This document shows positions 4,135 through 17,534 of a DNA stretch of 46,452 nucleotides, piece by piece. The stretch covers positions 1 through 46,452 of the forward strand of contig NZ_LSJS01000152.1 in the NCBI RefSeq assembly GCF_001557325.1, read 5' to 3'. The stretch comes from Erythrobacter donghaensis (GTDB lineage: Bacteria > Pseudomonadota > Alphaproteobacteria > Sphingomonadales > Sphingomonadaceae). How positions within the stretch are numbered: the stretch's first letter is position 1; each line of letters starts with the position of its first letter. Made by a program: the position numbers and the translations under genes. The notes beneath the pieces are model-generated. The model ran no database searches and was not told the DNA's origin. It worked only from the letters and a program-made list of their open reading frames with translations.

Positions 4135-5952
4135 ATGCGGGGCTTACACTTGGACAATCGCAATCTTCTGCTCGCCGTGGTGCTTTCGGGCCTGTTGATC
4201 CTGGGCTGGGATATCGGCCTGCGCTATTTCTACCCCGAAGCCTCGATGTCCGCCCAGACCAGCCCCAAGGCCGCGACCGCCGCCGCCAGGGACGCGGGCA
4301 CGGCCAAGGGCGCAGGCGGGCTCGGCACCGAGACGGCCGCGCGCAAGGTCGACCTCAAGACCGCGCTGACGGGCGGCAACCGCGTCGTGATCGACACCCC
4401 GCGCCTCGAAGGCTCGATCAACCTCGTCGGTGCGCGGATCGACGATATCGAGCTGAAGGACTACCGCGAGACGGTGGACAAGGATTCGGGCCCCGTCCGC
4501 CTCTTCGCGCCCGAGGGCACCAGGTCGCAGTATTTCGCCCAGTTCGGCTTTGTCGTGAACGGCAACCGCCAGGCACCGAACCTCGTGTGGCAAGCCGACG
4601 GCACCCGGCTGACCCCGACAACGCCGGTGACCCTCACCCACATCGGGGCGGACGGGATCACCTATCGCATCACCTTCGCGGTCGATGCCAATTACATGAT
4701 CACCGCCAGCCAGTCGGTCAGCAATGCCAGCGCCGTGCCGGCCGTGATCCAGCCCTTCGCGCTGATCAAGCGCACCAGCACCAACGCGACGATCGACCAG
4801 TATGCCTCGCACTCGGGCGCGGTGGGCGTGTTCGACGGAACGCTCTACGACCCCCATTCCTATGCCGAGCTCGAAGAAATTTTCGCGCCCAAGCGCGCGC
4901 AGTTCGCCCGCGGCGAGATCAGCGAGATTCCGTCCGACAAGCCCGAAGGCGCGCCCGACTGGCTGGGCTTCACCGACCAGTACTGGCTCTCTGCGCTCGT
5001 TCCCGGTGACGGGAAGGGCAACGTCAAGGTCGATGATGCGGGCTTCCGCAGCCTCGGCGGCAATCTGTTCCGCACCGACCTGATCTACAGCCCGACCACC
5101 GTGCCTGCCGGCGGCAGCCTGAAGCAGCAGACGCGGCTGTTTGCCGGGGCCAAGGACAGCCAGATCCTCGACGTCTATGAAGACGGCGGGATCACCAATT
5201 TCGGCCTCGCGATCAGCTGGGGCTGGTTCGCCATCGTCGAAAAGCCGATCCTGTGGCTGCTGCGCACGCTCAATGGCGTGGTCGGCAATTTCGGTCTCGC
5301 GATCATCCTGCTCACCGTCATCATCCGCGGGCTGATGTTCCCGATCGCGCAGAAGGGCTTTGCCTCGATGGCGGCGATGAAGGCGGTGCAGCCCAAGATG
5401 AAGGAGATCCAGGAGCGCTTCAAGGACGACAAGCAGCGCCAGCAGCAGGAGATCATGAAGCTCTACAAGGACGAAAAGGTGAACCCCTTGTCCGGCTGTC
5501 TGCCGATGCTGATCCAGATCCCGGTGTTCTTCGCGCTCTACAAGGTGCTGGTGCTCGCGATCGAGATGCGGCACGAGCCCTTCTTCCTCTGGATCCGCGA
5601 CCTTTCCGCGCCCGATCCGGCGCACATCCTCAACCTGTTCGGGCTGCTGCCCTTCGCGATCCCCGAGGCGAGCTTCCTTGCCATCGGCCCGCTCGCGGTG
5701 CTGCTCGGCATCACCATGTGGCTGACCTTCAAGCTCAATCCGGCGGCGATGGACCCGGTGCAGCAGCAGATGTTCGCGATTATGCCGTGGATCATGATGT
5801 TCGTGATGGCGCCCTTCGCGGCCGGGCTGCTGCTTTACTGGGTGACCTCGAACATCCTCACTGTCGCCCAGCAGAGCTATCTCTATTCGAAGCACCCGCA
5901 GCTGAAGGCAGCGAATGCGGCGGCGGAGAAGGCGAAAGCGGCGAAGGGTTAG
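4135..5952 (+). CDS. yidC: membrane protein insertase YidC
   Basis: A 605-residue YidC/Oxa1 insertase. TM1 is near residues 10-28 (LLLAVVLSGLLILGWDIGL). A large periplasmic beta domain spans about 70-355, and the conserved insertase core begins near residue 362 (GWFAIVEKPILWLLRTLNGVVGNFG). NPLSGCLPMLIQIPVFFALYKVL is in the core and the C-terminal tail is Lys-rich. It inserts inner-membrane proteins alone or with SecYEG. The start is uncertain: ATG at 4135 gives MRGLHLDNRNLL, while TTG at 4150 gives LDNRNLL with GGGGC just upstream, closer to relatives. EngB follows after nine bases. Confidence 0.96.
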   Translation: MRGLHLDNRNLLLAVVLSGLLILGWDIGLRYFYPEASMSAQTSPKAATAAARDAGTAKGAGGLGTETAARKVDLKTALTGGNRVVIDTPRLEGSINLVGARIDDIELKDYRETVDKDSGPVRLFAPEGTRSQYFAQFGFVVNGNRQAPNLVWQADGTRLTPTTPVTLTHIGADGITYRITFAVDANYMITASQSVSNASAVPAVIQPFALIKRTSTNATIDQYASHSGAVGVFDGTLYDPHSYAELEEIFAPKRAQFARGEISEIPSDKPEGAPDWLGFTDQYWLSALVPGDGKGNVKVDDAGFRSLGGNLFRTDLIYSPTTVPAGGSLKQQTRLFAGAKDSQILDVYEDGGITNFGLAISWGWFAIVEKPILWLLRTLNGVVGNFGLAIILLTVIIRGLMFPIAQKGFASMAAMKAVQPKMKEIQERFKDDKQRQQQEIMKLYKDEKVNPLSGCLPMLIQIPVFFALYKVLVLAIEMRHEPFFLWIRDLSAPDPAHILNLFGLLPFAIPEASFLAIGPLAVLLGITMWLTFKLNPAAMDPVQQQMFAIMPWIMMFVMAPFAAGLLLYWVTSNILTVAQQSYLYSKHPQLKAANAAAEKAKAAKG

Positions 5953-5961
5953 GGCACCGGC

Positions 5962-6642
5962 GTGGACGATCCCGAACTCCAGGGGCTGCGCGAGGAAGCG
6001 GCATCGCGGCTCTTTTCCGGGCCGGTCGATTTCCTGCGCTCGGCCCCGCAGCTGCAATTCCTGCCCGAGCCGGTGGTGCCCGAGATCGCCTTCTGCGGCC
6101 GCTCGAACGTGGGCAAGTCCTCGCTGCTGAACGCGCTGACGGGGCGCAAGGCGATCGCGCGGGCTTCGGTGACGCCGGGGCGCACGCAGGAATTGAACTT
6201 CTTCGACGTCGGCCGCCCCGAGGAAGAGGGCGCGCTGCCGCTGTTCCGGCTGGTCGACATGCCCGGCTACGGCTTTGCCAAGGCGCCGGTCAAGGTGGTC
6301 GAGAAGTGGAAGGCGCTGGTCAATTCCTACCTGCGCGGGCGGCAGGTGCTGGCCCGCACGCTGGTGCTGGTCGACAGCCGCCATGGCCTGAAGGCGGTCG
6401 ACCGCGAGATGATGACGATGCTCGACAAGGCTGCCGCCTCCTACCGCATCGTCCTCACCAAGACCGACAAGATCAAGGCGAGCGAACTCGCCGCAGTCGC
6501 CGAGAAAACCGCCGCCGAGGCCAAGCAGCACGTCGCCGCTCACCCCGAAATCCACCTCACCAGTTCCGAGAAGGGCATGGGCATCGAGCGCCTGCGCGCC
6601 GCCGTGGTGGCCGACGCGCTGGGTGAGGGGTGGATGGGTTAG
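5962..6642 (+). CDS. engB: ribosome biogenesis GTP-binding protein YihA/YsxC (EngB)
   Basis: A 226-residue TRAFAC GTPase with a GTG start nine bases after yidC. G1 is GRSNVGKS near residue 45, the G2-region Thr lies in ASVTPGRTQELNFF, G3 is DMPGYGFAKAP near 99 and G4 is TKTDK near 167. These are the EngB hallmarks, and the family acts in 50S subunit assembly. The length is normal and nothing is broken. Confidence 0.95.
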   Translation: MDDPELQGLREEAASRLFSGPVDFLRSAPQLQFLPEPVVPEIAFCGRSNVGKSSLLNALTGRKAIARASVTPGRTQELNFFDVGRPEEEGALPLFRLVDMPGYGFAKAPVKVVEKWKALVNSYLRGRQVLARTLVLVDSRHGLKAVDREMMTMLDKAAASYRIVLTKTDKIKASELAAVAEKTAAEAKQHVAAHPEIHLTSSEKGMGIERLRAAVVADALGEGWMG

Positions 6643-7424: not shown

Positions 7425-9281
7425 CTAGCGCACCTGCGCCCTGAACCGGATCGTGAAGCTTGGCCGGTTGGTCGCGCTTGTCGCCGCGGCCATCGTGCCT
7501 GTGGGGGCGATGCGGATGCCGCGGACGTTGGCATCGAAGCTGCCGGTCGGCGTGTAGGTATAGGGCGCCGCGCCGCCGCTCGCCTGCGAGTAGGTCACCA
7601 TCGTGTTCGCGTTGAAGGTGTTGAGCCCGCTCGTCGGCGTGCCGTTGGTGAAGGTCACCGGGGTGCCGACCGCGAAGGCCATTTCGGGCGGCATCACGTC
7701 GAGGAGCACGATCGAGCTCGCATCCACCGTGCCCGCGCCCACGTTGCGCACGGTGATCGCATATTCGACCACCGCGCCGGGGATCGCCTTGGGGTTGTTG
7801 GTGCCGTTGACCGGATCGGAGATGACGCTGCTGGTCTTGCTGATCTCGAGCAAGGCGATCGAGCGGCGGGTGTTGGTGATGGTGCAGGTGATCGAATCCC
7901 CGGGCCGCAGCGTGATCGCCCCGCCCACGGCCGTGGGCAGCACGGTGGTCGATCCGCTGGTGGCGTTGGTGCAGGCCATGGTCGCGGTGTAGTTGCCGAG
8001 GACGGCGGTGCCCGCTGCGACCTCGTCGACCGTGTAGGTGGTGCCGTTCACGACCTGCCGCAGCGTCGTGTCGCCGGTGCCGCCGCTGATCGTCCCGCCG
8101 TTGCCGGTGGTGGTCGAAGAGGCGAACACCGCGCCCCCATCCATGATCCGCACGGTGAACTGGTCGCCGGTGAAGCGCCGCCCGCCGCCGCCGAGCAGCT
8201 TGCGCACGCGCAGCCGCGGCTGGGCGCCGACCTGGAAGGTGCAGACCAGGAACTCGCCGAATTCGAGCTGGCCGATGCTGGTGTTCGTGGTCGAAAGGGC
8301 ATTGGGCAGGGCCGCGCGGGTGGTGCCCGCGGTGTTCACGCAGCTGAGGTTGGCGGCATAGGCCGAGAGCGCGCTGGCGCTGCCCGCGGCCATGGCCAGC
8401 CGCAGGGTGACCGGGATGCCCGCCGCCATGCTCAGCGGGGTGGTGGTGAAGGGGCCGGTGCCGGTGCCGCTCGTCGTACCGCTGCTGATCGTCGCCGAGG
8501 TCGCGGTCGAAGCGATCTGGAAGCTGAACTGGTCGGCGCTGTTGACCCTTGTGCCGAGGATCTGGGTCTGGAGCCGGATGGTCGCGAAGCGGATCGCGAA
8601 CATCACCCCTTGCAGCCCGCCGGCGCGGGTCTCGACCGTGACGCTGGTGGGGCTGTTGCTGCCGAGGATGTAGGCCCCGACGGTGCCGGGCGCACCGGTG
8701 ATGTTGACCGTGCCCGAGCCGACCCCGCTGATCGGCGGCATGGTCGATCCCGAGATCGGCGGCACCGAATCGAGCAGCTGCCATGATCCGCCATTGCTGG
8801 TCATGCGGATGTATTCGTTGTCGTTGCTCGATTCCCCGTCGGCGACGACGAAGGAATAGACCGTCACGCCCCCGCCTGCGGGAGGGGTGACGGTGATGCC
8901 CGTGATCGCGATCGTGCTGGTGCCGGCCTGCGCGGAGTAGAGCACCGGGCGGCCGGGGATGCCGATGAAGGCGCTGTTGCCCACCGCCGCGCCGCTCCAC
9001 GAGGGCGCGGGCACGTCGTTATAGGCCGGGTTGGTGCCGGTGACGCGGGCGTTGAAGCGCAGCACCGAGCCGTCGGGCAGGGTGAAGGCCATGTTCTGGC
9101 CCGAGGCCGAGCGCGCGGCGGCGTCGTCGTAATTGGCCATGTTGAGCCAGCAATAGGTCTGCCAGCTGGCGGGCGCGGTGCCCTGGGTGGCGGCCTGCGC
9201 ACAATCCTGCGCGCGCGCGGCGGGGCTCCATGCAAGGGCACACAGCAACACCAGCAGCGCGAGCATCCGGCGGACAGGCAT
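7425..9281 (-). CDS. secreted DUF11-type multidomain surface protein
   Basis: About 618 residues. MPVRRMLALLVLLCALAWS, with cleavage near ARAQDC, is a good signal peptide. The Shine-Dalgarno-like GGGAAGG three bases upstream favours ATG 9281, with 9296 and 9317 as in-frame alternatives. The rest is Thr/Ser/Gly-rich beta sandwich sequence. It includes a CshA-like N-terminal region (YSFVVADGESSNDNEYIRM), two Cys-bearing prealbumin-like units ending in CTITNTRRS and CTFQVGAQ, and a C-terminal DUF11 domain opening with SDPVNGTNNPKAIPGA. The chain ends TIRFRAQVR. No membrane anchor is seen. It is the last gene of the minus-strand surface cluster, and its function is unknown. Confidence 0.75.
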   Translation of the reverse strand: MPVRRMLALLVLLCALAWSPAARAQDCAQAATQGTAPASWQTYCWLNMANYDDAAARSASGQNMAFTLPDGSVLRFNARVTGTNPAYNDVPAPSWSGAAVGNSAFIGIPGRPVLYSAQAGTSTIAITGITVTPPAGGGVTVYSFVVADGESSNDNEYIRMTSNGGSWQLLDSVPPISGSTMPPISGVGSGTVNITGAPGTVGAYILGSNSPTSVTVETRAGGLQGVMFAIRFATIRLQTQILGTRVNSADQFSFQIASTATSATISSGTTSGTGTGPFTTTPLSMAAGIPVTLRLAMAAGSASALSAYAANLSCVNTAGTTRAALPNALSTTNTSIGQLEFGEFLVCTFQVGAQPRLRVRKLLGGGGRRFTGDQFTVRIMDGGAVFASSTTTGNGGTISGGTGDTTLRQVVNGTTYTVDEVAAGTAVLGNYTATMACTNATSGSTTVLPTAVGGAITLRPGDSITCTITNTRRSIALLEISKTSSVISDPVNGTNNPKAIPGAVVEYAITVRNVGAGTVDASSIVLLDVMPPEMAFAVGTPVTFTNGTPTSGLNTFNANTMVTYSQASGGAAPYTYTPTGSFDANVRGIRIAPTGTMAAATSATNRPSFTIRFRAQVR

Positions 9282-9364
9282 CAACCTTCCCAACATTCCG
9301 CCAGCATAGGAAATCATGGTAAACGGCCGGTTAGCAAACCGCCCTAGACCCGCGCCCGCCATGG

Positions 9365-10807
9365 TCAGCGCCCCAGCCCGAGGAAGCCGAGGTTGCCGGC
9401 GTCGAACTTCATGCGCAGCGCGGCAAAGGCGCCCTTGTCGGTGCTGCGCGCCGGACCGAAGTCGCCGTCGCGGAAGCCTTCGATGTTGTATCCCAGGGTC
9501 AGCAGCATGCCGTCGGTGGGCACGAAGCCGAAGGTCGGGCCGTAGGCGTAGTTGATGGTGTTGTCGTCGAGATTGCCGCGCGCGGTGACGCTCGCGCCGA
9601 GCTCGATGCGTCCGCCGATGCCGATGCGGGCATCGCTCCCGACCAGCAGCGCGGTGCCCTGGAACTCGGTGCCCTCGAAGGCATCGAGATTGTGGCGCGC
9701 GCCGAGGAACAGCGCGATCTCGTGGCGGCGCACCTGCGCGCCCGCGTCGTCTGCCGAGCGCGGGCTGAAATTGGCCGAGAGGCTGCCGACCAGCCGGCGC
9801 GCGACCGCGTTGCCATCGACGGTGAGCGCGGTGCCGCCCAACGCGGTGCCGCCGGCGACCGCGCCGGTCACCTCGTCGCTGCGATATTCGACCCGGCCGA
9901 GCATGGCGAGCGGCGAGTCCGAGGGACGGTGGGCGAAGGCGATGCTGGCATCGATGATCTCGGCGACCGCGCCGCCGGTGGTCTCCGAGCGCGTCCACGT
10001 CGCGCCCGAGCCGACCAGGCTGCCCTCGCCGAGCTGGCGGATCGCGCCGAGCAGCACGCCCTTGCGGTCGGTGGTCTCGCCGTCGCGCCATTCGCCGCGT
10101 GCGGTCACGCTCCAGCGGTCCTTGCGCCAGGCCGCGCCCATGGTGACGGCGGTGAAGTCCTCGAACAGCAGCCCGCCGGTGAGCTGGCCGCCGCTCGCCG
10201 CGGGCTGGTTCGGGTTGACGAGGCTGGCGGGCGCGGGCGCGCCGCCGATGGTGCGGTTGCCGTCGATCGTGGCATCCACGGTCAGCGCCGGGCTCAGTTG
10301 CAGCGTCTGCGACAGGCCGAAGGCGGCGAAGGAGCGGGTGCCGTTCTCGCCGATGGTTTCCTCGCCCAGCGTGGTGGTGATCTGCCCGCCCTGCCACGGC
10401 GCGACCTCGATTCCGCCGCGCAGCTGGCGCGCGTTGAGGCGCTCGCCGTCGGCGATCTCGTAGGTGCCCACCAGCCGTACGTCCTGCGTGATCGCATAGC
10501 GCGCACCGAGGCGGTGGCGGGCGGGGAGGTCGGTGCTCTCGGCCTTGCCGAGCGCCACGGCCGTCCCGGCGGAGAGTTCGAGCTTGTTGCCGAGCAGCCG
10601 CTGGGTCGCGCCCGCTTCGAGCACGGTCGAGGCGGCGCTGCTGCCATCGGCGAGGCGGTCGGTGAAGTGGACGACCCCGAGCCGCAGGTTGGTGTTCTGG
10701 CGGGTCAGCGCGATCTGGCCCTGCGCGGCGCGGCGGCGCGCGGCGTCGGTCAGGCTGTCGTCCTGCCACAGGCTGCCGGTGAAAGTCAGCTCCTCGGTGA
10801 TCAGCAC
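9365..10807 (-). CDS. C-terminal part of giant outer-membrane protein (separated by in-frame TGA)
   Basis: A 480-residue frame from a GTG at 10807. It is really a continuation of the next gene upstream: the same reading frame runs open from 10939 right after a TGA at 10940-10942. The sequence is alternating amphipathic strands with turns (LRLGVVHFTDRLADGSS, RLVGTYEIADGERLNAR, TLGEETIGENGTRSFAAFGL), typical of an outer-membrane beta barrel, and it ends NLGFLGLGR. Alone it has no signal peptide and no nearby ATG, so it could not reach the outer membrane unless the TGA is read through or is a sequence error. It is best treated as the 3' part of a broken or recoded gene. Confidence 0.7.
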   Translation of the reverse strand: MLITEELTFTGSLWQDDSLTDAARRRAAQGQIALTRQNTNLRLGVVHFTDRLADGSSAASTVLEAGATQRLLGNKLELSAGTAVALGKAESTDLPARHRLGARYAITQDVRLVGTYEIADGERLNARQLRGGIEVAPWQGGQITTTLGEETIGENGTRSFAAFGLSQTLQLSPALTVDATIDGNRTIGGAPAPASLVNPNQPAASGGQLTGGLLFEDFTAVTMGAAWRKDRWSVTARGEWRDGETTDRKGVLLGAIRQLGEGSLVGSGATWTRSETTGGAVAEIIDASIAFAHRPSDSPLAMLGRVEYRSDEVTGAVAGGTALGGTALTVDGNAVARRLVGSLSANFSPRSADDAGAQVRRHEIALFLGARHNLDAFEGTEFQGTALLVGSDARIGIGGRIELGASVTARGNLDDNTINYAYGPTFGFVPTDGMLLTLGYNIEGFRDGDFGPARSTDKGAFAALRMKFDAGNLGFLGLGR

Positions 10808-10939
10808 GCGGCCATCGACCCCGAACTTGCGCCGCCCGCGCTCGACCGCGTTCTGCTGGCCGATGCCGTAATCGGCGTCGATCTGGCGGGCATAGGCGAT
10901 GAGGTCGATATCGCCGGTCTGGTGCTGGACTTCGGCCAG

Positions 10940-13900
10940 TCAGCCCTGCGCCGTCTCGCCCTCGCGGCGGCTCAGGCCGATCTCGGCGCGCACTTCGGTG
11001 CTGTCGCCGAGCTTGGCGAGGAGGTCGACCGCGGCGAGATCGGTGCGCTGCGCCGTGCCGCCCGCGCCCTCGAGCCCGGCGTCGCTGATCGCGCTCGCGC
11101 CGATGCGGATCTTGCCGTCCTCGCTCGTCCAGTCGGCGCGCGCGCCCGCGTTCCATTCGGCCTCGCCGCGGGCATCGGTCTCGTATTCGATGACGATGAA
11201 CTGCGGGTTGAGGTTCTCGTCGCGGCTCAGCACCGGGAAGGCAAAGCGGATCGTGCCCGCCAGCAGGTCGATGTCGTAGTCGGTGAAGCGGGTGAGCGTG
11301 CGGCTCGAGACGATCTGCTCCGGCCGGAAGCGGTCGCGCACCTCGATCGTCACGCGCTCCGAATTGGCGAGGATGCGGCGATTTTCCAGGGCGTAGGGGC
11401 CGGAGATGCCCTGGCCCTGCGTTTCCTGACGCTGGAAGCGGCTGGCGATCTGCGCGGCGAACCCTTGCGCCTTGAGCCCGCCGACGCGCGCCTCGCCGGT
11501 CACCCCGGTCGCGGTGCGGTTGTAGGCGGCAAGGCGCGTCTGGTTGAAGGCGGTCTGGAAGTCGCCGTAAAGCGCGTAGAAGGCGGAGGTCTCGATGCGG
11601 ACATAGAGCTTCTCGCGGCTCGCGGCGTCGAACTGGCGCGCCGAGGCATCGCCGAACACGGTGTAATAGGCCTGCGGATCGATCGCGCCGAGCACGCGCT
11701 GGTCGTCGCGCTGCTTGGCGCTGTCATAGGCGATGGTGAGCAGGTATTTGCCCAACACCCGGCCCTTGGCATAGAGCGCGATGCGCGCGTCATCGCCAAG
11801 GTCACTGTCGAAGCGGCCGGCGCGTTCCATGTTGTCGGCCACCGACCGCGCGCCGACAGTCCCTTCGACAAGGCCGATCACGGTCCATTCGACCTCGCCC
11901 GGCTCGATCCACGCTTCCAGTTCCTGACGGCGGGTGATCTCGCCATCGTCGAAGGTGAAGCCGAGGCGCAGCGAACCGCTGACCATGGTGGGGGCAAGCT
12001 CGATCTTCGCGATCCCCTCGTTGCCGTCCACCACCCAGCGCGCATTGACCGGCGCGGTGCCGGTCAGCTGATTGAGCTGCTGGCGGTCGATCTGCTCGGC
12101 GCTCTGGTAGGGGGCGTTGAGGGTGAAGCTGCCCGAGATGCCTTCGCGCAAGGGCCGGTTGTTGCGATCGAGCACGCGGATCGCGATCACCGGACGGGTG
12201 CGACCATCGGCGATGAGGTTCGACTGTTCGCGCAGGAACTCGATCCTGGCGGGCGCGCGGGTGAAGAACACCTCGCGGGTGAAGGTCTTGGAGACCTCGC
12301 CGAAGGAGTTGAGGATGCGCGCCTCGAGCACGGTCTTGTCGGTCAGCAGCGGCACGCCGCGCCACTGGCTGACCGCCCACAGGCCGACCTCGGGGTTCTG
12401 TGTCCCCTCGAAGGCGAGCGGGCTGACCGGCTTGCCGTCGACGAACAGCTGGACGCTCTGGCCGAGGCGATGCCGCACCGCGACCTTGATCGCCGGCGCG
12501 CGCGGGTTGGCGTCGGGGGCGGGGGCGAGGAAGCCGTCCTCGCCATCGCCCAACGCGAGATAATCGGTGACGGTGGGGCCAGAATCCTTCGGCGCATCCT
12601 TCGGCGCATCCTTGGCGGCTTCGGCAACGGGGGCGTCGGCGTCGACGGCGGGGGCCGGGAGCGGGGCGAGCTTGGCGCGCGCGGCCTCGGGCAGCACGGC
12701 GTGGAAATCGGCGACCACCAGGCTTCCGCCCTGACCGATCGCGAAGCGCGAGATCGCGCTGCCCGCGCTGCGGGTGTTCCGGGTGCAATCGACGAACTGG
12801 CCGCCCTCGGGCAGGGTCATGGGCGCGACCTGCACCACGTGGGTGCCGGGGACGACGCCTTCGAAGTGGTAGCGCCCGTCGGCATCGGTGACCGCGAAGC
12901 TGCCGTCCTCGAGCATCACTCGCACGCCCGGGATTCCGCGGCGTTCGGCCTCGGGCAGGGTGCACGGGCCGTCGGTGATGCGGCCGATGATGGTCATGCG
13001 GTCGGCAATCGTATCGCGGTCGATGTCGATCACGGCGTCGGCGCGCACCTCGCGGCCCAGCGCGTCGCGGGCGAGCGCGAGGTTGACCACCCGGCCCGGA
13101 GGCGCATCGGGGCGCACCGACATGGCGTAGGTGACCTTGACCGAGGTGGCGGGCGCGATGTCGCCGAGCGCGATCGTCAGCACGCGGCCATCGGGCGAGG
13201 TGGTGAGCGCGTCCGGCGCGCGGGCGCCGTTGATGCGCAGGCTGTCGGGGCGCAGCCGCAGCCAGCGCGAGGGGGTGTCGGTGATCGTCACCGTGCGGCG
13301 GATGCGCGCCGGGTCGGTGTTGCCCACGGTGAGCGTGTAGAACACCACGTCGCCCGGCTCGGCGCGGGTGCGCGAGGCGGTCTTGACGAGGCCGAGATCG
13401 GCGGCGGGCCCGTCGACCGGAATGTCGACCTCGAAGGGCACGGGGGTGTCGAGCACGAAGATGTCGCCGAACGAGCCCTCGCGGATCACGTAAGGCCGCC
13501 CATCGGGCCGGGTGAGGCGCGCGAGCACGTCGCGCGGGGCGATGGAGGGCGCGGTGAAGGGTTCGGGCGGCTCGACCAGCAGCCGGAACCGGCCTTGCGC
13601 GGTGAGCGGGAACCAGAACTCCCCCGGCCCCATCTGCACCACGCGGCCGCTGCCGTCGGTGATCGGCTGGCCGCTGATGACGCTCGACGGCCAGGGGGTG
13701 ACGCCGTCCTCGGCGAAGACGGTCGCGGGCGCGCCGGTGTCGGCATTGACGAGGCTGACCCGCGCGCCGGAGACGGGCGCGCCGGTCTCGCTGTCGAACA
13801 CCACGCCGAAGGGATCCACCAGCACCGTGACGTCGGCCGTGACGAGCACGGCATCGCTGTCGGGGCGCATCGCGGCGATGGTGATGCGCGAATCCGCGCC

Positions 13901-14530
13901 GACGCTGAGGCGGCAGTCCTCCTGCGCCAGCGGCGGGGGGATGCGCTCGGTGCCGATCACCCCGGCAAAGATGCCGCTGTCGGGGGCGGTCTCGTAGACC
14001 GTCATGGTCTCGCGGTCGCCCTCGGGGGTGGTGAGCACCACGGTCAGGGTGTCGATCTGTGCGGGATCGCGATTGGCCGATGCGGCGGTGATCTCGAAGA
14101 ACAGCGGCTCGCCCCCGCGCAGCTCGTCGGTCTGCTGGACCCTGGCGACGGAGGTGGGGATGGAGGCGACGGCGTTGCCGCCCGGGGTCACGCTGGCGGT
14201 CGCGGTCGCGCGCAGCGCGGCGGTGGAGATGCCGCCCGCGCTGCACTGCGGCGCGCGGTAGACGAGTTCGGCGCCGCCGTCGCCCGGCACGCGCCGGAAC
14301 ACGCGGATCGCGGGCGGTGCGGGGGGCTGGGTGGTGACGTCGAAGGTGACCGCGTTGCTGGTGGTCTGCCGGGGAGCGCCCTGCATCTCCCAGCTGGCCT
14401 CGGCGATGTTGGTGACGGTGCGCACCGCGCTCGCCGGTTGCGCGTGAACCCCCTCCTGCGGATGGCCGAAAGGCAGCAGTACTGCGCACAGTACCGCTGC
14501 CAATCGCCGCAGAGAGGGGGAACCACGCAA
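10940..14530 (-). CDS. giant exported outer-membrane protein, N-terminal part, ends at in-frame TGA
   Basis: 1196 residues from a TTG start at 14530, the only start near the signal peptide MRGSPSLRRLAAVLCAVLLPFG. Beta-sandwich regions come first, then a DUF11 domain near residue 378 (ADLGLVKTASRTRAEPGDVVFYTLTV cut at its strands). An SdrD-B-like/carboxypeptidase-regulatory-type module is near 515-570 (GIPGVRVMLEDGSFAVTDAD, GRYHFEGVVPG). A KDAPKDAPKD linker follows, and barrel-like strands run from about 880 onward. The stop at 10940 falls inside the barrel, and the frame continues for another 524 codons. Reading through would give about 1,721 residues. It lies 19 bases after the preceding DUF11 gene in the cluster. 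Confidence 0.75.
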   Translation of the reverse strand: MRGSPSLRRLAAVLCAVLLPFGHPQEGVHAQPASAVRTVTNIAEASWEMQGAPRQTTSNAVTFDVTTQPPAPPAIRVFRRVPGDGGAELVYRAPQCSAGGISTAALRATATASVTPGGNAVASIPTSVARVQQTDELRGGEPLFFEITAASANRDPAQIDTLTVVLTTPEGDRETMTVYETAPDSGIFAGVIGTERIPPPLAQEDCRLSVGADSRITIAAMRPDSDAVLVTADVTVLVDPFGVVFDSETGAPVSGARVSLVNADTGAPATVFAEDGVTPWPSSVISGQPITDGSGRVVQMGPGEFWFPLTAQGRFRLLVEPPEPFTAPSIAPRDVLARLTRPDGRPYVIREGSFGDIFVLDTPVPFEVDIPVDGPAADLGLVKTASRTRAEPGDVVFYTLTVGNTDPARIRRTVTITDTPSRWLRLRPDSLRINGARAPDALTTSPDGRVLTIALGDIAPATSVKVTYAMSVRPDAPPGRVVNLALARDALGREVRADAVIDIDRDTIADRMTIIGRITDGPCTLPEAERRGIPGVRVMLEDGSFAVTDADGRYHFEGVVPGTHVVQVAPMTLPEGGQFVDCTRNTRSAGSAISRFAIGQGGSLVVADFHAVLPEAARAKLAPLPAPAVDADAPVAEAAKDAPKDAPKDSGPTVTDYLALGDGEDGFLAPAPDANPRAPAIKVAVRHRLGQSVQLFVDGKPVSPLAFEGTQNPEVGLWAVSQWRGVPLLTDKTVLEARILNSFGEVSKTFTREVFFTRAPARIEFLREQSNLIADGRTRPVIAIRVLDRNNRPLREGISGSFTLNAPYQSAEQIDRQQLNQLTGTAPVNARWVVDGNEGIAKIELAPTMVSGSLRLGFTFDDGEITRRQELEAWIEPGEVEWTVIGLVEGTVGARSVADNMERAGRFDSDLGDDARIALYAKGRVLGKYLLTIAYDSAKQRDDQRVLGAIDPQAYYTVFGDASARQFDAASREKLYVRIETSAFYALYGDFQTAFNQTRLAAYNRTATGVTGEARVGGLKAQGFAAQIASRFQRQETQGQGISGPYALENRRILANSERVTIEVRDRFRPEQIVSSRTLTRFTDYDIDLLAGTIRFAFPVLSRDENLNPQFIVIEYETDARGEAEWNAGARADWTSEDGKIRIGASAISDAGLEGAGGTAQRTDLAAVDLLAKLGDSTEVRAEIGLSRREGETAQG

Positions 14531-14549
14531 GACCTAAGTCCCGATCAGC

Positions 14550-15599
14550 TTAGCGGATCGTGACCTGGAAGTAGAGCGAACGGGTCTGCCCCGCCGCCAC
14601 GTCGCTGAGCGTCCCGGTGATGCGGTCGCGCCCGCTGACGCCCGCTCCGGCAGCGAAGGTGCCGCCCGGCGTGCCGTTGGCGCAGCTCGCGTCGCCGTCG
14701 ACGAAGATCCCGAAGCCCGAGGCATAGGCCACGTCCGCCGGGAGATCGTCGAGCAGGTTGACCCCGGTCGCGGTTGCAGCGCCCGCGGCGTTCGCCACGG
14801 TGATGCAATACTCGATCGTCGCACCCGGGATCGCCTTGGGGTTGGTCGCCCCGTTGACCGGATCCGACACCACACGGCTGGCCTTGGCAACGGTCAGCAC
14901 CGCGCCCGACACGCTGTAGCGGCCCTGGGCCGAGAACGCGCCGTCATTGAGGCCGTCCGACACGCCCTGGCCGTCGAACAGCACGGTGTCGACCGCGTTG
15001 ACGGTGTTCGCGCCCGCAGTCGCAGTGATACGGGTGCCGAGCGAGCCGGCAGTGCCCGAGGTGTGCGCCGCCGCGGTGAGCGCAACGTCGAAGGTGTCGC
15101 CGTTCACCGCGTTGATGCCGATGTCGGACACGACCAGCACCGCCACGGTCGCGTCTTCGGCGACTTCGTCGAGGTAGGTGATCTCACCCGCGGTGATTTC
15201 CGCAGCGTCCAGCACCCGGTCGCCGTTGAGATCGCGGTAGATGCGGATGTTGCTGATGTTCGCCGCCGTGCCGCCACGCAGTTCCGTGGTCAGTGCAAGG
15301 TCGGCCGTCGCGTTGCCGAGGTTGGTCACGTCGAAGGCCAGCACGCGGTCGGTCTGGTTCGGCGAAACCGTCACCGGCGTGGTGATGGCGGTGACAGTCA
15401 CGTTGACGCGCTGGTCGACGGTGAAGCTGTCGGTCGCCTGCACCGCGTTCTGCGCGTTGCCGCTGACGTTGTAGTTAACGGTGACGGTGTTGGTGATGGT
15501 CGTCCCGGCTCTGGTCCCTGCGGCCAGAGCAGGGGTGCTGGACATGGCGACGAGTGCTACAGCGCTCACCGCACCCAGCAGCTGCTTGGTGGTCTTCAT
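14550..15599 (-). CDS. secreted DUF11 protein with calcium-loop motif
   Basis: A 349-residue protein. The signal peptide is MKTTKQLLGAVSAVALVAMS to ALAAG (about 1-27). An N-terminal beta domain begins GTTITNTVTVNYNVSGNAQ. Residues 123-134 (DLNGDRVLDAAE) match an EF-hand/dockerin-like calcium loop. The C-terminal DUF11 domain begins near 240 with SDPVNGATNPKAIPGATIEY and ends in SLYFQVTIR. The opening and calcium loop are shared with the gene at 16230, so the two are paralogues. No sortase signal, anchor or autotransporter domain is visible. I infer that it is a structural cell-surface protein. Confidence 0.78.
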   Translation of the reverse strand: MKTTKQLLGAVSAVALVAMSSTPALAAGTRAGTTITNTVTVNYNVSGNAQNAVQATDSFTVDQRVNVTVTAITTPVTVSPNQTDRVLAFDVTNLGNATADLALTTELRGGTAANISNIRIYRDLNGDRVLDAAEITAGEITYLDEVAEDATVAVLVVSDIGINAVNGDTFDVALTAAAHTSGTAGSLGTRITATAGANTVNAVDTVLFDGQGVSDGLNDGAFSAQGRYSVSGAVLTVAKASRVVSDPVNGATNPKAIPGATIEYCITVANAAGAATATGVNLLDDLPADVAYASGFGIFVDGDASCANGTPGGTFAAGAGVSGRDRITGTLSDVAAGQTRSLYFQVTIR

Positions 15600-15670
15600 G
15601 ATTATGGTCCCGAGTGTCTGCCCCGCGTCAAAGTTGCCGCCCGCGGGGCTTGGCGGCTATCTCCCGCCGG

Positions 15671-16159
15671 TCAGCGGATGATCACGGGAAAGGAGACCCG
15701 CCCTGACGCGCCGGGGGCGATGGTGGCGAGCACCCAGCGCACGTGGGTCACGTCGGCATGGGTGGCGGGACGGCTGGTGCCGTCGGCCGCGGTGATGCTG
15801 AGCGCGGCGAGCCTGCCCCAGGTCTTGCCGCCGTCGACCGACACCTCGAGCGCCGGATCGGCGTCGGGCGCGAGGCGCACGGCCTCGGGCAGCGGGTTGG
15901 TGATCGAGAAGTTGGTCACCACCTCGGCGCTGCTGTTGGTGTAGTTCTGACCGAACAGCAGCCGGTCGCCGGGCAGGAAGCTCTCGGGCTCGACCAGCTG
16001 GACGGCAGGCTTGCCGTCGGGGCCGGGGACGGACTTCTCCGCCTTGATGTCGCCGTTGACGGTGACGGCCGGCGGCGTGTCTTGGGCGGCGAGCGGCAGG
16101 GCGGGCACGACCAACCCCGCAGCGGCGCAGACGAGCATCAGCTTGGTGATCGACTTCAT
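15671..16159 (-). CDS. small secreted single-domain DUF11-like protein
   Basis: 162 residues starting at the ATG at 16159, chosen because GGGGAAGC precedes it at the right distance. Longer in-frame starts add a low-complexity MNKKNNNN stretch. The signal peptide is about 1-24 (MKSITKLMLVCAAAGLVVPA, then LAAQ). One beta-sandwich follows: FLPGDRLLFGQNYTNSSAEVV, SITNPLPEAV, EVSVDGGKTWG, ending VSFPVIIR. The pattern is that of a lone DUF11 domain of the kind found in its neighbours. It sits 70 bases after the first gene and 71 bases before the third, consistent with one transcript. Confidence 0.75.
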   Translation of the reverse strand: MKSITKLMLVCAAAGLVVPALPLAAQDTPPAVTVNGDIKAEKSVPGPDGKPAVQLVEPESFLPGDRLLFGQNYTNSSAEVVTNFSITNPLPEAVRLAPDADPALEVSVDGGKTWGRLAALSITAADGTSRPATHADVTHVRWVLATIAPGASGRVSFPVIIR

Positions 16160-16229
16160 GGTTGCTTCCCCGGTGACTCGTAAGGTGTTGACGTTATTGT
16201 TATTCTTCTTGTTCATGTGCTTGTGAGGA

Positions 16230-17141
16230 TCACTGGTCGACGGTGACCTCGAAGGTGATCTGGCGATTGGTGCCCGCCGCCACGCTGCCGAGCGTGACGC
16301 TGATCCCGCTGGCGTCCGAGGCGGTGCCGGCATCGGCGTCGGCCGCGTCGGTCAGCGCACCGGCATCGAGCGCGAGCGTGCCCGGGACGTAGGTCGTGCC
16401 GGCCGGGATGGCGTCGCTCACCACGAGGTTGGCGACGCTGCCCGTGCCGCTGACGCGGGCCTCGATGGTGAAGGTCGCGATCGAGCCCGGCACCGCGCTG
16501 GTGCCGCCGAAGGGATCGCGCAGGGTGACCGACTTGACCAGCTGGACGCTCGCGACAGCCGTGTTGAGCTGGCCGCGTGCATCGGCGAGCGCGCCGGTCG
16601 AGCCGACCACCGCGTCCCCGCCGCCCTCGCCTTCCCCGGCGAAGATGGTGCCGGGCGCGCCGTTGCCGGTCGCCGCGGCCGCGGTGAGCTGGACATTGCT
16701 GGTGTCGCCGTCGGCGGCGGTGTCGGGCACGGTGACGAGCACGAACACGGTGACGCGCGCATCGGGCGCCAGCACCGGAGTGGTCAGCGGCCCGGTGAGG
16801 ATCTGGTCGACCCCCTCGTCATAGACGCCGTTGCCGTTGCTATCGATGGCAAGGCCGCGAATGGTCACGTCGAAGTCATTGCCGGCCACCGCCGCTTCGG
16901 GGGTGAGGAGGAAGGCTTCGGGGCCGTTGCCCGGGTTGGTGACTTCGAAGGTCAGCACCGCATCGCCGCGCGCCGCGCTGATCGGGCCGGTGTCGAGCGA
17001 GGTCACGGTGACATCGAGCAGTTCGTCGACGCGCACGGTGACCGTGTTCGAATCCACGCTGCGCGGCGTGCCCGCCTCTTCGAAACTGGCGGTGGCGGTG
17101 TTTTCGATCAGCGTGCCGGCGGTCACGCCCGCGGCGAGCAC
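16230..17141 (-). CDS. secreted DUF11 protein with calcium-loop motif; start region damaged
   Basis: 303 residues if started at the GTG at 17141. It is a paralogue of the 14550 gene: GVTAGTLIENTATASFEEAG at the N-terminus, DSNGNGVYDEGVD (about 100-112) as a calcium-loop motif, and a DUF11 domain ending ITFEVTVDQ. The GTG start would remove the secretion signal. The frame upstream of 17141 codes for LASIIATALLAGAATPVLA, a good hydrophobic core and cleavage region, but it contains no ATG, GTG or TTG back to its stop. An ATG at 17209 is one base out of frame. Adding one base in the run of five G at 17189-17193 would join them. See the findings. Confidence 0.7.
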   Translation of the reverse strand: MLAAGVTAGTLIENTATASFEEAGTPRSVDSNTVTVRVDELLDVTVTSLDTGPISAARGDAVLTFEVTNPGNGPEAFLLTPEAAVAGNDFDVTIRGLAIDSNGNGVYDEGVDQILTGPLTTPVLAPDARVTVFVLVTVPDTAADGDTSNVQLTAAAATGNGAPGTIFAGEGEGGGDAVVGSTGALADARGQLNTAVASVQLVKSVTLRDPFGGTSAVPGSIATFTIEARVSGTGSVANLVVSDAIPAGTTYVPGTLALDAGALTDAADADAGTASDASGISVTLGSVAAGTNRQITFEVTVDQ

Positions 17142-17209
17142 GGGGGTGGCGGCACCGGCCAGAAGGGCGGTGGCGATGATCGAGGCGAGGGGGCCGTCAA
17201 GGCGAGCAT

Positions 17210-17534
17210 GTCTGGTCGTGCTCAGGGGAACTACGGAGCAATAGTTAGTATTTCGTTAGCCATCATTTGCCGATTCCGGATCACGATCCCGCGCCATCCG
17301 GATAAGTCCCTAGGCGCAAACCGGTATCCGAACCGTTAGTGTGATTAGCTAATTCTTTGTGCGGCGACTCCCGGCCGCTCCGCGCGGAGCGCCGACGCGT
17401 GGGCGCGGGTACGGCGATTGGCAGCGGGCGCAGCCGATCCGGCGCGCCGGCTGCGGTAAGCCGCCGTCAGTCGGCCCCGTGCCCGGGGAGCGGTTCCTTG
17501 CCGCGGCGCGCGCGCACGTCGGCGGCGGTGCGGG
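17210..17534. other. intergenic region upstream of the surface cluster
   Basis: No gene is seen in these 325 bases. The half nearest the surface cluster (17240-17360) is locally AT-rich and is where a minus-strand promoter would be expected, but I cannot point to a convincing -35/-10 pair. It holds a perfect palindrome ATTAGCTAAT (17344-17353) and an inverted repeat GGATC-AC-GATCC (17278-17289). Nearer the VOC gene there is a 16-base perfect palindrome (17376-17391, CGCTCCGCGCGGAGCG), lying 3' of the VOC gene. Confidence 0.5.

Follow-up and report, generated by a model that had tools for sequence, protein, structure and literature searches.

Five consecutive minus-strand genes in a 46,452-nt contig of Erythrobacter donghaensis (NZ_LSJS01000152.1; the whole stretch is referred to as the window) constitute one module, which is kept in order in related bacteria and includes a giant protein predicted to end in a large outer-membrane barrel. 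The genes, designated A, B, C, G and E, run from 17219 to 7425 with spacers of 70 (A/B), 71 (B/C), 19 (C/G) and 2 (G/E) bases, bearing out the first-pass annotation of this DNA, which had described five consecutive genes on this strand. The module probably serves to build, or to anchor, a component of the cell envelope. Our tentative reading, which we place somewhat short of an even chance, is that of an outer-membrane platform handling Sec-exported proteins of the DUF11 type (a domain of unknown function), with the soluble half of G in the periplasm and E as a variable outer part. No published description of the module was found, and the OMPdb paper (PMC9581022) does not use the term "DUF11" in its main text.

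Conservation of the module in related genomes

A genome-collection scan returned 147 relatives of G, the best 80 of which were analyzed as loci; by name these were mostly Erythrobacteraceae and Novosphingobium/Sphingomonas strains, together with metagenome-assembled genomes. The closest relatives point to a host of the Erythrobacter/Porphyrobacter group. A, B, C and G had the same order and strand in all 72 loci in which more than 3 kb of sequence precedes the start of G. Overall, the four genes were collinear in 74 of the 80 loci, including two of the eight without such room, and the other six had no upstream sequence. Absence of the gene set from relatives, named by the first-pass annotation as an outcome that would refute its reading, was thus not observed. 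Intergenic gaps in the related loci were mostly short, the exceptions being 796 bases in L069 and 1031 bases before a truncated G in L017. An E-type gene, recognized by position and length, was located 3′ of G in about 62 of the 72 loci with downstream room (at least 700 bases past G); 62 loci passed this test, one of them (L059) falsely, and the E gene of L006 was added from a separate search. The neighbors of the module in the window do not travel with it, as the glyoxalase gene recurred in 9 and the YidC gene in 6 of the 80 loci, some of which are cut. No downstream gene cluster other than E had more than 13 members across the related loci.

A family sample of 149 genomes gave a similar picture, with barrel matches in 53 genomes and B matches in 81. 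Long barrel matches, defined as covering at least 680 model positions (48 of 57 rows, in 47 genomes), were compared with a subset of the B rows copied by hand; in 47 of these 48, a same-strand B lay no more than 8 kb upstream, and for the remaining one, B was found on another contig. Some genomes carry two copies of the module (for example G256, with loci L113 and L114), and L113 has the same A-B-C-G-E order as the window. Taken together, the five genes are a real unit.

Distribution beyond the family

Matches to the barrel profile were found in 46 of 196 genomes sampled from the order, 9 of 289 from the class and 41 of 349 from the phylum, tallies in which matches to the first 300 residues alone are also counted (5 of the 9 class matches). 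Of the 41 phylum matches, 30 spanned about 670 or more positions in one row (hand count). Among fifteen wider loci picked by hand for reading of gene context, two of which (L144 and L145) came from the order sample, B was located upstream of G in 11. The complete A-B-C-G-E order occurred in L133 and L144, and E-A-B-C-G in L134. Seven loci (L135–L139, L141 and L147) had B, then at least two A/C-type genes, then G, some of the A/C-type genes in L136, L137 and L147 being identified by size and hairpin motif alone. The order was B-A-G-E in L142 and A-C-G in L145; L140 and L146 were interrupted by contig ends, and L143 contained a DUF11 protein, a small barrel protein and a long frame that includes a DUF11 part resembling that of G. 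B-C-G was found in L105, and B, a DUF11 gene, G and an E-like gene in L106. In L112 (19-13656), one open frame of 4545 aa unites a DUF11 domain with the barrel core, which we count in favor of the proposed platform. Named relatives of the L139 G protein came from Ghiorsea, Mariprofundaceae, Geomonas, Geobacter, Desulfuromonadales, Desulfosarcina, Smithella and a gammaproteobacterium.

Several further features accompany the distant loci. Divergent histidine-kinase-like and response-regulator-like genes, named by eye, lie beside the module in L135, L137, L139 and L147, and are either possible regulators or just clade synteny. A similar protein of ~300 aa directly follows G in L135, L137, L139, L140 and L147. 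Proteins of ~900–1720 aa in L107–L111 and L143 have in common with G mainly the start of the barrel half (its first ~300 residues); OmpA domains were detected in those of L107 and L111 and not in that of L109 (three scanned), and a DUF11 protein is encoded directly upstream in L107, L108 and L111.

The predicted barrel of protein G

G (9365..14530, minus strand) comprises 1721 codons from a TTG start and consists of a soluble half (codons 1–871, 11918..14530) and a barrel half (codons 872–1721, 9368..11917). The latter was modeled on the intact, 89% identical copy in L013, using an alignment of 49 sequences. About 40 strands of at least 6 residues were counted by hand from the DSSP assignment of this model (predicted template modeling score (pTM) 0.60) outside an insert at 168-237, near codons 1039–1108 of G. 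G is thus predicted to end in a large outer-membrane barrel, and the alternative outcome envisaged in the first-pass annotation, a giant protein with no predicted membrane barrel, did not materialize. The intact L013 barrel half gave no NCBIfam match and, in Pfam at E values up to 1, only a chance-level hit to Ctf8 (E 0.19); usher, TonB-receptor and autotransporter profiles, including the Pfam autotransporter-type barrel domain, were not found in it. Nor did Pfam detect an outer-membrane secretion domain in the six flanking genes scanned, in agreement with the earlier statement that no chaperone-usher or autotransporter system accompanies the module.

Structural matches of the barrel half to SlpA, LptD, SprA and FimD were partial, with 7–12% identity, and mainly signify "large barrel". 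The FimD usher was the first VIA row (root-mean-square deviation (rmsd) 9.1), within 1 Z of VDAC (14.0); the predicted G barrel is larger than the 24-stranded, plugged barrel of FimD, the model having more strands, and the intact copy lacks an usher profile in Pfam at E values up to 1. Porin-type, AlgE and Wzi rows were also present among the structural neighbors and, together with the large size of the barrel, would fit a channel for uptake or polysaccharide export in which the DUF11 proteins act as ligand-binding helpers. However, these rows are generic barrel matches (6–13% identity, rmsd at least 8), no transporter or polysaccharide gene cluster downstream is shared by more than 13 entries, and Pfam named no gene of either kind among the six scanned neighbors in the window; we regard such a channel as very unlikely.

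The soluble half of G is probably periplasmic

The soluble half contains a signal peptide, a hairpin motif, DUF11 and CarboxypepD_reg domains (Pfam), a Pro/Ala-rich linker and an Ig-like part. The G profile aligned in all 120 of the far relatives listed, and in 103 of these a gap of at least 100 residues separated collinear G blocks, in 99 cases near profile positions 480–700. In the L139 protein, the gap holds an OmpA domain at residues 722–824 (Pfam), which NCBIfam reads as the OmpA/MotB type, and the L134 protein has an OmpA domain at 703–805, before its CarboxypepD part (Pfam). OmpA was listed for 105 of the 120 far relatives (hand count; this list is centered on one OmpA-bearing clade) and for none of the 120 rows of the relative listing that includes P0044. 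Sphingomonad G proteins have the Pro/Ala-rich linker near this site instead, and Pfam detected no wall-binding domain in the G of either the window or L013. OmpA-type domains bind peptidoglycan. Since many far relatives of G carry this peptidoglycan-binding domain, the soluble half should lie in the periplasm. The first-pass annotation had pictured G as a stalk on a barrel; the barrel is retained as a prediction, whereas the stalk, in view of the many far relatives with OmpA before the barrel, is probably periplasmic and not a surface structure.

The secreted partners A, B and C

A (16230..17219, minus strand; 329 aa counted from an ACG codon) carries a hairpin motif of 30 residues after its signal peptide, a calcium-loop-like motif and a C-terminal DUF11 domain. 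C (14550..15599, minus strand; 349 aa) is a secreted paralogue of A (hhalign 99.8%, 321 columns) with a C-terminal domain of the DUF11 type. The TIGR01451/DUF11 scores of 34.9 bits for A, 31.3 for C, 30.3 for G and 26.9 for E all exceeded the curated cut-off of 24 bits, in line with the DUF11-type domains proposed before. The first-pass annotation had also noted calcium-loop motifs, and calcium-loop-like motifs were read from sequence and family consensus in A and, less strictly, in C. The hairpin motif recurs in the soluble half of G; in hhalign comparisons with that half, A scored 94.5% for DUF11 and 89% for the hairpin motif, and C scored 84% and 37%, respectively. Cysteines past the first 25 residues were absent from A in 69 of 73 family members and from B in 72 of 75, and numbered two in C in 73 of 76.

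B (15671..16159, minus strand; 162 aa) is a small secreted protein with no DUF11/TIGR01451 match and no Pfam or NCBIfam match above chance. Its model is a single beta-sandwich of high confidence (predicted local distance difference test (pLDDT) 88), unlike the two-domain PapD-like chaperones of chaperone-usher systems, and Pfam found no member of the PapD-like family among A, B, C and E. Of the 75 members of the B family, 73 have Arg as the C-terminal residue. B-like small secreted proteins also stand alone in the family sample (L115–L128), several of them beside apparent 2-oxo acid dehydrogenase genes (named by eye).

Signal-peptide-like N-termini, called by a strict home-made rule rather than by SignalP, were present in 62 of 73 A, 65 of 75 B, 73 of 76 C, 59 of 72 G and 58 of 61 E proteins, compared to 130 of 551 open reading frames outside the module, in line with the signal peptides (one of them inferred) of the first-pass annotation.

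Protein E is the variable member

E (7425..9362, minus strand; 645 aa) combines CshA_NR2 (E 8.2e-19) and SpaA_3 domains (Pfam) with a DUF11-type repeat near its C-terminus. CshA is a fibrillar adhesin of streptococci. The likeness to CshA was seen in the E of this clade; neither CshA_NR2 nor SpaA_3 was found in nine other E proteins tested, and all nine had a DUF11 match, at differing places and in two cases below the cut-off. In the 56 loci with all five genes, compared with L013 as the reference, median identities of A, B, C and G were 63, 56, 56 and 64% over 93–100% of the length. In contrast, E was hit in 53 of the 56 loci with a median of 38% identity over 25% of the length, 14 hits reaching 70% coverage. 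This variability suggests an exposed binding part. A direct repeat of 98 bases (77%) pairs the DUF11 part of E (7742-7839) with that of C (14789-14886), as a recently shared domain.

Comparison with known systems and proposed role

SprA/Sov, the type IX secretion translocon, is reported to be a 36-stranded barrel of about 7 nm that passes folded cargo (PMC7463736). G is similar in its predicted very large single-chain barrel and in having folded, beta-rich secreted partners, and SprA chains were among its Foldseek rows (8gl8, E 1.3e-06; 6h3i, 1.3e-04). However, identity to SprA is 7–8% with TM-scores of 0.09–0.25, and the module is hosted by Pseudomonadota and Geobacter/Desulfosarcina-type bacteria. 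No SprA-type match was obtained in the scans of NCBIfam, a library expected to include a SprA model.

Deinococcus SlpA is reported to connect the outer membrane to the wall by means of a barrel of 30 strands and, at its N-terminus, an SLH domain that binds the wall (PMC9388160). The predicted layout of G, a soluble N-terminal part followed by a large C-terminal barrel, and the wall-binding domain of many G relatives would agree with a connector of this kind, in which G ties outer membrane to wall, A, B and C act as periplasmic struts or wall-facing partners, and nothing is exported through the barrel. In contrast to SlpA, G has no SLH domain (Pfam; window G and L013), has Ig/DUF11 parts where SlpA has a coiled coil (judged from domains), shows 9–12% identity and is accompanied by the partner genes A, B, C and E. 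We consider this connector possible, if doubtful. G resembles both SprA and SlpA with no sequence kinship seen to either, and probability is therefore split between the readings.

In the platform that we tentatively prefer, all five proteins would leave the cytoplasm via Sec, as their signal-peptide-like N-termini suggest. The very large barrel of G would sit in the outer membrane while the soluble half remained in the periplasm, and many relatives of G would bind peptidoglycan through the OmpA domain, as suggested by the observed domain order. A and C may dock on the soluble half of G through the common hairpin motif and DUF11, with B as a single-sandwich companion, and the wide barrel may then hold folded beta-sandwich proteins or let them through. 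E would be the outermost binding part, its N-terminal part depending on lineage and being CshA/SpaA adhesin-like here. The analysis shows co-conservation, domain order and a barrel prediction; docking, passage and surface display are inferred.

Several observations weigh against this proposal. The barrel-half model is of middling quality (pLDDT 72.4, pTM 0.60), and OmpA was detected neither in two of the four distant G proteins scanned (L133 and L142) nor in the G of L106. Profile links of B were weak (hhalign; 59–70% to C, 43% to G and 10.5% to A), and the periplasm may simply be where A, B and C reside. E is missing from about 10 of the 72 loci with downstream room, and B or A from some distant loci (L145 and L142). 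Finally, B-like genes were sampled at 14 places outside the module, 8 in genomes lacking a barrel match and 6 as second copies, and none of these places showed an A, C or G hit in the central 13 kb.

A bolder version of the platform, which we judge unlikely, would make G the translocon of an undescribed export system of Pseudomonadota and relatives, with a single-chain barrel at least as large as that of SprA, anchored to the wall on the inside, passing folded DUF11 proteins and displaying E as a lineage-specific adhesin. A surface layer or fibre built by the module is possible by analogy; the precedent is GhlA of Litorilinea (Chloroflexota), whose DUF11 Ig-like repeats are reported to form grappling hook-like surface filaments (PMC13319060). 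GhlA itself is a single protein of 6,596 aa that has 49 DUF11 domains and lacks a signal peptide (PMC13319060), in contrast to the small separate proteins and outer-membrane barrel of the module.

Lesions in the window copy

The G frame in the window is open for 1196 codons, is interrupted by TGA at codon 1197 (10942-10940) and continues for 524 further codons in the same frame, so that the giant barrel protein of the first-pass annotation, though supported by the barrel prediction, is not encoded here without a break. Trp occupies this site in the 23 homologues of one alignment, and the residue across 77 related loci was W in 69, Y in 4, F in 3 and M in 1, three of the 80 loci having yielded no G frame by the rule used. 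The start codon of A is ACG (17219-17217) where six relatives compared have ATG at the aligned position, which leaves the signal peptide of A without a standard start. Sequencing error and true decay are both possible for either lesion, and if both lesions are real the window copy is probably not fully working. The first-pass annotation had overlooked both lesions and had not named the CshA_NR2 and SpaA_3 domains of E.

An operon that is decaying and functionless in this organism, and used by its relatives only, would account for the TGA in G and the ACG in A. Yet B, C and E start with ATG and have open frames, no further stop occurs in A or G, each lesion is a single base that could be a sequencing error, and P0044, 99% identical over 77% of G, keeps Trp at the TGA site; moreover, decay here says nothing about the module in other genomes, and we find it improbable. 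Intact copies of the module exist in relatives. In each of the genomes G340, G823, G830, G846 and G880, the barrel match of G is listed with one internal stop despite a full-length frame, perhaps representing the terminal stop only.

Genomic surroundings

The module is flanked on one side by genes for YidC, an inner-membrane insertase, a GTPase and a staphylococcal-nuclease homologue, and on the other by genes for a glyoxalase-type protein, GST and an S1/P1 nuclease. Antisense open frames of great length occur at 9692-14563 (plus strand) and 4144-6555 (minus strand), in DNA of 69% GC; they are probably mechanical and not genes.

Implications

The module is kept from Erythrobacter to Ghiorsea-like genomes, and its predicted barrel could rival the largest known. 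It would represent either a new tie between membrane and wall or a new means by which folded proteins are moved or held at the outer membrane. DUF11 thereby gains a concrete operon for testing, and cultured hosts exist among Erythrobacter, Novosphingobium and Qipengyuania strains.
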